Shown piece after piece: positions 41,389 through 45,034 of a stretch of 64,000 bases of DNA. A program made the translations under genes and the position numbers. How positions within the stretch are numbered: position 1 is the first letter of the stretch; each line of letters starts with the position of its first letter. The DNA comes from Weissella diestrammenae (GTDB taxonomy: Bacteria > Bacillota > Bacilli > Lactobacillales > Lactobacillaceae): the NCBI RefSeq assembly GCF_014397255.1, contig NZ_CP060724.1, positions 1,426,001 to 1,490,000 on the forward strand, given 5' to 3'. The notes under the pieces are model-generated. The model saw nothing but the letters and a program-made list of their open reading frames with translations, ran no database searches and was not told where the DNA came from.

Positions 41389-42408
41389 ATGATGAATGAT
41401 GATGTCTTAAATCATGACATACTTGATAGTGATGAAATTCAACTTGAACAGTCATTACGTCCGACACAGTTAGACCAATATATTGGGCAAACACAGTTGA
41501 AAGCGCGATTATCAGTTTATATTCAAGCTGCCAAACAACGAGAAGAACCACTTGATCATGTTTTACTTTATGGACCACCAGGCTTGGGAAAAACGACTCT
41601 GGCAGCAGTTATCGCTAATGAGATGGTGGTCAATTTCCGAACGACAACTGGCCCAGTGATTGAAAAGCAAGGGGACCTGCTTGCGATTTTAAATGAGCTA
41701 GCGCCAGGAGATGTCTTATTCATTGATGAAATTCATCGTTTGCCACGCAATGTGGAAGAAATGCTATATTCGGCGATGGAGGATTATTATGTCGACATTA
41801 TTGTTGGTGATGGTGAGTCATCGCGACCTGTTCGTTTTCCTTTGCCACCTTTTACATTAATTGGTGCCACTACGCGTGGGGGTATGTTATCTCAACCATT
41901 GCGTGATCGTTTTGGCATAGTTGAACATATGAATTATTATACTGAGCAAGAATTAGCTGATATTATTAAGCGTTCAGCTAAAATTTTTGCGATGACAATA
42001 ACAGATACTGGCGCGATTGAACTCGCGCGTCGATCACATGGCACACCACGGATTGCAAATCGTCTATTACGTCGAGTGAGAGACTTCGCAATGGTACAGA
42101 ATAAAGACGTAGTTGATATTGATTTAGTTAACTACGCTTTGAATTTACTGAAAATTGATAGTGCAGGTTTGGATCAAGTTGATCAAAAAATATTATTAAC
42201 GATGATTAATTACTACCACGGTGGTCCAGTTGGAGTGAAAACCATGGCAGCAAATATTGGTGAAGAAATTGATACAATTGAATCAATGTATGAGCCTTAT
42301 CTGTTACAAATTGGATTTTTACAACGAACGCCGCGTGGCCGCGTTGTGACCCCAGCCGCATATCAACATTTACAAATACCTATCGATAAGGAAGAAGGGG
42401 AAAAATGA
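41389..42408 (+). CDS. ruvB: Holliday junction helicase RuvB
   Basis: AAA+ motor for branch migration. Walker [12 protein letters not shown] (about 64), Walker [12 protein letters not shown] (about 112), sensor [19 protein letters not shown] and a C-terminal winged helix with TPRGRVVTP. 339 residues. ATG 41389 and ATG 41392 are both possible. Overlaps queA by ATGA. Confidence 0.98.
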
Positions 42409-43451
42409 CTACACCACACTATACGTTGGAAGATTTTGATTATGACTTACCACATGAGTTGATTGCACAGACACCACTTGAGAAACGCGATACATCACGT
42501 TTGTTAACGTTAAATGCAACGACTGGCGAGATGACTGATCGTCATTTCTTCAATATTATTGATTATTTAGAACCTGGTGATGCAGTTGTTATGAATAATT
42601 CAAGAGTTTTGCCAGCACGGTTACATGGTATTCGTCCAGAGACAGGCGGTCATGTTGAGGTACTCATGTTGAGACAAGATCATGGGGATGTTTGGGAAAC
42701 ATTGGTCAAGCCATCACGAAAGTATCCGGTCGGTGCCGAAATTTCATTTGGGAATGGTGAATTAATGGCGACTGTGGTTGGTGAGCTAGAACATGGTGGT
42801 CGCATGATTGAGTTCCATTATGATGGTATTTTTCTTGAAATATTAGAAGCTTTAGGTGAAATGCCATTGCCACCGTATATCAAAGAAAAATTGGAAGATC
42901 AAGAACGATATCAAACGGTCTATTCAAAGGTTAATGGTTCGGCTGCTGCACCAACAGCTGGTTTACATTGGACACCGGAGTTATTGAAGGCGGTTTCTGA
43001 TAAGGGTGTCAAGCTAGTTGAATTAACCCTGCATGTTGGTTTGGGAACTTTTCGTCCAGTTGAAGAAGACGATATTGATGCACATAAAATGCATTCAGAG
43101 TTCTATCAATTGACGTCTGAGGCAGCTGCGACATTGAATGAAGTCCATGCCAATGGTGGAAAAATTGTTGCAACTGGAACGACATCAATCCGTACGCTAG
43201 AAACAATCGGCTCAAAATTTAATGGCAAATTAGAAGCGGACTCAGGTTGGACAGATATTTTTATTAAACCGGGTTATCAATGGACGACTGTTGATGCATT
43301 CATTACCAATTTCCACTTACCAAAATCAACGCTTGTGATGTTAGTTGCAGCCTTTACTGGTCGTGAGACAATCCTAAATGCGTATCAACATGCGATTGAA
43401 GAAAAATATCGTTTCTTTTCATTTGGAGATGCGATGTATGTCCATCATTAA
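42405..43451 (+). CDS. queA: S-adenosylmethionine:tRNA ribosyltransferase-isomerase
   Basis: Converts preQ1 in tRNA to epoxyqueuosine, using the ribosyl group of SAM; it acts after Tgt. The N-terminus [21 protein letters not shown] and the blocks [15 protein letters not shown] and VGLGTFRPV are family hallmarks. 348 residues, complete. Coupled to ruvB by a 4-base overlap and followed by tgt 9 bases later. Confidence 0.97.
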
Positions 43452-43460
43452 GGAGAAAAT

Positions 43461-44675
43461 ATGCGGCAAATTAGTGAATTTGATCAATTCTTAATTGATC
43501 AGTACCCTTTAAAAGAAGAATATTTGCATGACCCTAAACGACCGGTTATTTATGAACTTTTACATGTTGAAAAGCATACAGGTGCTCGTTTGGGTCGGAT
43601 TTATACGCGTCATGGCGTTGTACATACGCCAATGTTTATGCCAGTTGGGACGCAGGCATCTGTCAAAAACGTATCGCCACGTGATTTAGATGAAATTAAC
43701 GCACAGTTCATTTTGTCTAACACATATCATTTATGGGTACGTCCAGGAGATGATTTAATTGCTAAGGCGGGTGGCTTACACAAGTTTATGCAATGGGATG
43801 GTCCAATATTAACCGATTCGGGTGGGTTTCAAGTTTGGTCACTCTCAAATAATAATAAAATATCAGAAGAGGGTGTTGATTTTAGGAATCACGTTGATGG
43901 CTCACCAATGTTTTTGTCACCAGAGGTTGCGATGCGTATTCAGAACAATTTGGGCTCTGATGTTATGATGCAACTTGATGAAGCAATTCCATATTTTGAG
44001 TCTTATGATTACGTGAAAAACTCGGTTGAACGAACAACACGATGGGCGGCGCGTGCAAAAATAGCACACCAACGGCCTGAAGAACAAGCACTATTTGGTA
44101 TTGTCCAAGGTGCAGGGTTTAAGGCATTACGTCAGTTGTCTGCGGAAGGATTGGTTGATCTGGATTTGCCGGGATATGCTGTCGGTGGCTTATCAGTTGG
44201 CGAAACAAAGGAGGAGATGAATCGTGTCTTAGATTTCACAATGCCTTGGTTACCAAAAGATAAGCCTCGGTATCTAATGGGGGTTGCTGCACCAGATTCG
44301 TTGATTGACTCAGCTATTCGTGGTATCGATATGTTTGATTCCGTGTTACCAACCCGGATTGGTCGGAATGGTACACTAATGACAAAACAGGGTAGAATCG
44401 TTATTACAAATGGTAAATATAAAGATGATTTTAGTTTGATTGATGAAGAAACTGAAGATTTTGGTTCACAACACTTTACCAAAGCATACCTACATCACTT
44501 ATTTAAAGCCAATGAGTTGTACGGTCAAAATATTGCATCTGTTCACAATCTTCGTTATCTGTTAAAGTTAATGGAGGATATGCGTCGGGCAATTTATGAT
44601 GATAACTTGTTGGACTTCCGCCAAGACGTGCTTGAAAATTACGGGTATAATAAACCCAATGCACGATTATTTTAA
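43461..44675 (+). CDS. tgt: Queuine tRNA-ribosyltransferase (TGT) lacking the zinc cysteines
   Basis: Exchanges G34 for preQ1 in tRNAs with GUN anticodons. The catalytic core is intact: [11 protein letters not shown] (about 118), [12 protein letters not shown], and [14 protein letters not shown] with the second catalytic Asp. The zinc site is changed. Where other TGTs have C-x-C-x2-C and a His 26 residues on, this protein has Thr331, Asp333, Ser336 and His362: same spacing, no Cys. The N-terminus is about 25 residues longer than usual; the start is firm (AAGGAG at the right distance). Neighbours queA and yajC are as expected. Confidence 0.93.
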
Positions 44676-44695: not shown

Positions 44696-45034
44696 ATGAA
44701 TGGACAAACTATTTTAATTTTCATCGCTTTCATCGCATTGATGTACTTTATGATGATTCGACCACAACAAAAAGCAGCAAAGGCACGTCAAGAGTTGCTA
44801 AATTCAGTTCAAAAAGGGTCTGAAATTGTGACCATTGGTGGATTACATGGTGTGATTGATCAATTAGATGAGAAGACGTTCACACTTGATGCAGATGGCG
44901 TTTTCTTAACATTTGACCGTTCAGCTATTCGGACTGTTGTGACTAAACAAAACGTGACAACACCAGCTGAAAATGTAGATGCGCCAGTGAATGATGAGCA
45001 AGAAACATCAGCTGCTGATAAGGATGCTGAGTAA
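44696..45034 (+). CDS. yajC: Preprotein translocase subunit YajC
   Basis: Small SecDF-associated membrane protein. One membrane segment at the N-terminus (ILIFIAFIALMYFMMIRPQ, ending in the hallmark RPQ-K) precedes a cytosolic domain with GSEIVTIGGLHGVI. The acidic tail (about 85-112) is low-complexity. 112 residues. ATG 44696 has AAGGGG upstream. Ends the queA-tgt operon, as in many bacteria. Confidence 0.95.
   Translation: MNGQTILIFIAFIALMYFMMIRPQQKAAKARQELLNSVQKGSEIVTIGGLHGVIDQLDEKTFTLDADGVFLTFDRSAIRTVVTKQNVTTPAENVDAPVNDEQETSAADKDAE

Follow-up and report, generated by a model that had tools for sequence, protein, structure and literature searches.

Can a tRNA-guanine(34) transglycosylase (TGT) that has lost the ligands of its structural zinc still work? 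The question is raised by the tgt gene in a 64,000-nucleotide stretch of the Weissella diestrammenae chromosome (hereafter, the window). TGT is regarded as a zinc enzyme, and zinc has been reported as required for its activity (PMC9508795, citing Chong 1995); loss of the zinc site could therefore have meant inactivation. Judged from its sequence and its modeled structure, the window protein seems to be a functional TGT that inserts preQ1. Because TGT is strongly conserved alongside other genes of the queuosine pathway, these bacteria appear to run the enzyme without the metal. Features of the locus are collected in Table 1.

Table 1. Features of the tgt region, in window coordinates
Feature	Position	Strand	Remarks	Basis
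queA	42405..43451	+	Next step of the queuosine pathway; directly upstream of tgt	Profile matches
tgt	43461..44675	+	tRNA-guanine(34) transglycosylase, 404 aa, 0 cysteines	Profile matches
N-terminal extension	43461..43541	+	About residues 1-27, predicted helical (H6-14, H19-22)	AlphaFold, alignment
Asp119	43815..43817	+	Z. mobilis Asp102, general acid/base	Alignment
Asp173	43977..43979	+	Z. mobilis Asp156, base recognition; clade-fixed Ala175 (Z. mobilis Cys158) close after	Alignment
Asp293	44337..44339	+	Z. mobilis Asp280, nucleophile	Alignment
Former CxCxxC zinc loop	44451..44468	+	Now Thr331-x-Asp333-x-x-Ser336	HMMER alignment, codons
Phe339, Tyr343, His346	44475..44498	+	Z. mobilis dimer hot spot Trp326/Tyr330/His333	Alignment
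His362	44544..44546	+	Sole zinc-ligand position kept	Invariant in zinc and zinc-less TGTs
yajC	44696..45034	+	Conserved downstream neighbor of tgt	Profile match, synteny

Loss of the zinc cysteines

The tgt product matches TIGR00430 over its full length (505 bits, against a curated cut-off of 307) and PF01702 with 487 bits. In a HMMER alignment to solved TGTs, gap-free across the zinc region, residues Cys318, Cys320, Cys323 and His349 of the Z. mobilis enzyme fall on Thr331 (ACT, 44451-44453), Asp333 (GAT, 44457-44459), Ser336 (TCA, 44466-44468) and His362 (CAC, 44544-44546), with a spacing of 2, 3 and 26. The structural site CxCxxC...H is thus replaced by Thr/Asp/Ser/His, as a preliminary description of this DNA had read it, and the confidence which that description placed in the ligand spacing proves justified. 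Neither of the two objections that it foresaw applies. A sequencing error is ruled out by the identical loss in many independent assemblies, and a true cysteine cluster elsewhere in the protein by the lack of any cysteine in its 404 residues. A search of the same genome for a second TGT, carrying zinc, found none; this TGT is the only one there.

The window proteome as a whole is cysteine-poor (0.37%) and most of its long ORFs are cysteine-free, the exceptions being zinc proteins and an ORF of 336 aa that has 11 cysteines (starting MTMFKKQSHKWSNKRQ). A general purge of zinc sites is ruled out, as the zinc domains of PriA, Fpg and TopA, all encoded in the window, have been retained. Pressure against cysteine in general may nonetheless have helped the loss of the zinc site in TGT, even though other zinc sites survived.

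Extent and history of the loss

Every fetched TGT locus was read at the four ligand positions. The clade is represented by 81 records, with some genomes counted twice, from Weissella (the genus as recognized by its named members), genus g29, Leuconostoc, Fructobacillus, Convivina and related MAGs. None of them has the three zinc cysteines, and all have the histidine. Outside this clade, three batches of 78, 75 and 70 records (more than 200, almost all from Bacillota) read CCCH. These batches took in the lowest-scoring full-length matches among 151 class-sampled and 140 phylum-sampled genomes, and in both samples the lowest-scoring full-length TGT is that of the window. The only exceptions to CCCH outside the clade are divergent proteins of genus g6, which have lost catalytic residues too. 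Since the motif is missing from 81 of 81 clade records and present in all full-length catalytic outsiders, the loss goes beyond chance or error; and since the site fails clade-wide, the window protein was filed as a zinc-less variant rather than as a canonical zinc TGT.

A single change of state suffices on a maximum-likelihood tree of 69 TGTs, which groups the zinc-less proteins with a support of 100/100. The topology is not produced by the trait itself, because a 44-row tree built with the zinc-loop columns removed agrees with it (support 100/99). The sister of the zinc-less clade is the g19 lineage of the same family (68-70% identity), which has kept CCCH, and the stem branch of the clade is long (0.34 changes per column in the 69-TGT tree). 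The trees indicate that the zinc site was lost once, long ago, before Weissella and Leuconostoc split, a result new to this work, and one that bears on the question for which the preliminary description had proposed aligning TGTs from Weissella and related genera.

The zinc loop itself takes two forms. In Weissella and g29 its length is unchanged (T/L-x-D-x-x-S), and on the Leuconostoc side it is about 22 residues longer (SYYSxNPIR...FGN...NPFQ) and contains no Cys or His; the long loop is slightly shorter in the TGT of MAG Hm464. The zinc-less proteins contain on average 0.6 cysteines, compared to 6.3 in zinc-bearing ones, and the position of Z. mobilis Cys158 is Ala throughout the clade.

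It had been suggested that an N-terminal extension compensates for the missing zinc. The extension is real and conserved, but only in the subclade of W. kandleri, W. oryzae and W. muntiaci. W. confusa, W. viridescens, W. hellenica, g29, Leuconostoc and Fructobacillus have neither extension nor zinc site. Being confined to one Weissella subclade, the extension cannot be a general compensation.

Predicted structure and the former metal site

The AlphaFold model of the window TGT (pLDDT 91.5 overall and 94-98 over residues 331-350) consists of a TIM barrel plus C-terminal subdomain and fits Z. mobilis TGT with an rmsd of 1.2 Å and a TM score of 0.96; as AlphaFold does not model metals, the confident loop shows compatibility of the fold only, not a metal-free site. 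The model of the L. pseudomesenteroides TGT is equally good except in the inserted loop (pLDDT below 50 at residues 318-322). Published accounts give the zinc subdomain a part in the dimer contact and in the tRNA scaffold (PMC4425180; PMC6165067). Beside the zinc loop of Z. mobilis TGT lies a dimer hot spot, made up of Trp326, Tyr330 and His333 with the partner's Phe92 (PMC5395182); the last residue aligns with Phe109 of the window protein.

The site might still bind a metal (zinc, manganese or magnesium) by way of Asp333, His362 and Ser336/Thr331, or of the nearby His345/His346. In the Weissella rows Asp333, Ser336 and His362 do not vary, a possible sign of a residual metal site in that genus, and the whole clade has His345 at a position that is Arg in other Bacilli. 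However, solved TGTs that contain zinc also have a His aligned with His345. Furthermore, many members of Weissella and g29 have Leu at position 331, the Leuconostoc side has Tyr at 333 and a variable residue at 336, and its inserted loop offers neither Cys nor His. As all members share only His362, another metal, one of the options in the preliminary description, is unlikely across the clade, and we regard a surviving metal site as improbable.

Catalytic core, selection and pathway partners

The three Asp residues listed in Table 1 are invariant in a 58-row alignment, so that the core, including both catalytic Asp residues, is intact as initially stated. Residues 242-247 read GGLSVG, in agreement with the motif GGL(A/S)VG whose Val (here Val246) marks a preQ1-type pocket (PMC11570991). 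Selection on tgt is strongly purifying: between this and related Weissella species dN is 0.05-0.12, with dS saturated, and in the pairs compared tgt dN is similar to or below that of queA and below those of ruvB and yajC.

The preliminary description had drawn attention to queA next door, and the gene does lie directly upstream of tgt. Association with the pathway extends well beyond this locus. QueT, the preQ1 importer, is present in 51 of 52 genomes with TGT and in none of eight without it, a count that combines those genomes of the genus that were tested for both proteins (25 with TGT and one without) with genomes outside the genus. Among the latter, 26 of the 27 genomes with TGT also have QueT, the exception being a MAG of 68% completeness, and the seven without TGT all lack QueT. 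Within the genus, QueT and QueA are each present in 27 of 28 genomes. The one genome lacking both, from the Weissella group (G018), is also the one lacking TGT, tgt, queA and queT having been lost together. A tgt stub of 47 codons with stops is found there directly before yajC (L257:2951-3091).

A search for QueC in the 28 genus genomes gave no match in 24 and weak matches in four; since the gene is absent from the W. diestrammenae genome and only weakly matched in those four, preQ1 appears to be salvaged. That genome encodes QueT, QueA, TGT and QueG (G000:C1:1634072-1635073) and no QueC, the make-up of a preQ1-salvage pathway. QueG and QueH are both absent from 24 of the 27 Weissella genomes having QueT and QueA; in these 24, epoxyqueuosine may be the end product, or some other reductase may act. 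A search of the fetched queT region for the preQ1-I riboswitch gave matches passing the threshold in three relatives. Upstream from queT of W. diestrammenae (L169:1370-1439) lies a stretch that resembles a preQ1-I riboswitch but has a greatly lengthened loop, scoring below threshold (23.1 bits against 39 in Rfam).

These data bear on whether the clade protein is an active TGT at all, rather than one in decay or a pseudoenzyme. Inactivity would accord with the reported zinc requirement and has a parallel in g6, another genus of the family, whose tgt locus encodes a derivative of TGT from which the catalytic Asp residues are mostly gone. Against it stand the invariance of all catalytic residues in the clade, the strong purifying selection and the way in which presence of the protein tracks QueT and QueA, down to the triple loss. 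Decay as seen in the g6 proteins also looks different, and the window TGT has both Asp residues and an adjacent queA. An inactive protein is therefore very unlikely, and the enzyme is probably active, as first supposed. Equally hard to credit is an active transglycosylase with changed base or RNA specificity, of whose functional shift zinc loss would be part: the clade-fixed pocket changes F172L, C175A (Z. mobilis Cys158) and G276A and the long stem branch would suit it, but the protein retains Val246, the residue of preQ1 enzymes, and occurs together with QueA and QueT.

A proposed model for a probably zinc-free TGT

We consider it highly probable that the clade protein is a functional bacterial TGT, inserting preQ1, that has lost the structural zinc of its C-terminal subdomain and replaced it by protein packing. 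The substrate would be external: preQ1 would be imported by QueT and inserted by TGT, epoxyqueuosine then being built by QueA. Exchange of G34 of GUN tRNAs for preQ1 would follow the ordinary covalent mechanism, with Asp293 as nucleophile and Asp119 as acid/base. A single loss of the zinc site would date to the ancestor shared by Weissella, g29 and the Leuconostoc/Fructobacillus/Convivina group. In its place, side-chain packing alone would hold the helical subdomain at the dimer interface, through a loop of the same length in Weissella and one about 22 residues longer on the Leuconostoc side. We infer the absence of metal, the catalytic activity and this mode of stabilization from the ligand loss and its single origin, the conserved catalytic residues, the purifying selection, the predicted fold and the co-occurrence with QueT and QueA. 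The zinc-free fold anticipated in the preliminary description is probable, given that the ligands are gone clade-wide.

More tentatively, the clade might insert queuosine in an altogether metal-free manner, a scheme that we find possible while leaning against it. Import of preQ1 would spare the zinc and iron enzymes of synthesis, TGT would have shed its own zinc and the pathway may end at epoxyqueuosine; the subdomain would have been rebuilt in two ways, with the longer Leuconostoc loop making a new contact in the dimer or with tRNA.

A zinc-free TGT that is natural, ancient and shared by a whole clade would demonstrate that the enzyme can do without the metal. It would serve as a control for the role of zinc in folding, dimer formation and the tRNA scaffold, and would offer a cysteine-free scaffold to users of TGT as a labeling tool. 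The CxCxxC motif, for its part, is an unsafe guide for calling a TGT functional.

Comparison with known systems

Our search of open papers found no description of a zinc-less TGT. Among characterized enzymes, the window TGT resembles those of Z. mobilis and E. coli (TIGR00430, EC 2.4.2.29) in its catalytic Asp, base-recognition Asp and preQ1-pocket Val. It is 47% identical to the Z. mobilis protein, in addition to the close match in fold, and shares with it the Tyr and His of the dimer hot spot, the partner-side Phe and the zinc-ligand position His362. It differs from both in having no zinc cysteines, nor any cysteine, and in the change of Cys158 to Ala. The hot-spot position of Z. mobilis Trp326 is Phe in the window protein and Leu on the Leuconostoc side. 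The g19 TGT, like those of the clade, is paired with QueT where present; unlike them, it has a complete zinc site.

Genus g6 has no ordinary TGT. Between ruvB and yajC lies a syntenic, intact ORF, 25-30% identical to TGT (L181, L182, L184, L186, L187, L258 and L259). In its products Asp119 is mostly changed to K/L and Asp293 to E/I, both Asp residues being kept in one genome (G045). No queA lies beside these ORFs, and some copies keep the zinc cysteines. From its sequence, the g6 ORF is apparently a TGT-derived pseudoenzyme, the mirror image of the zinc-less TGT.

The human QTRT1/QTRT2 enzyme likewise combines a TIM barrel with a C-terminal subdomain for dimer contacts (PMC4425180; PMC6165067). 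Unlike the window TGT, it has zinc ligands in both subunits, even in the non-catalytic QTRT2. A precedent for the loss of structural zinc with function kept is provided by ribosomal proteins such as S4, L31 and L36, which exist in zinc (C+) and zinc-free (C-) forms (PMC3087516; PMC13343924). The zinc-less TGT differs from these proteins in being an enzyme.
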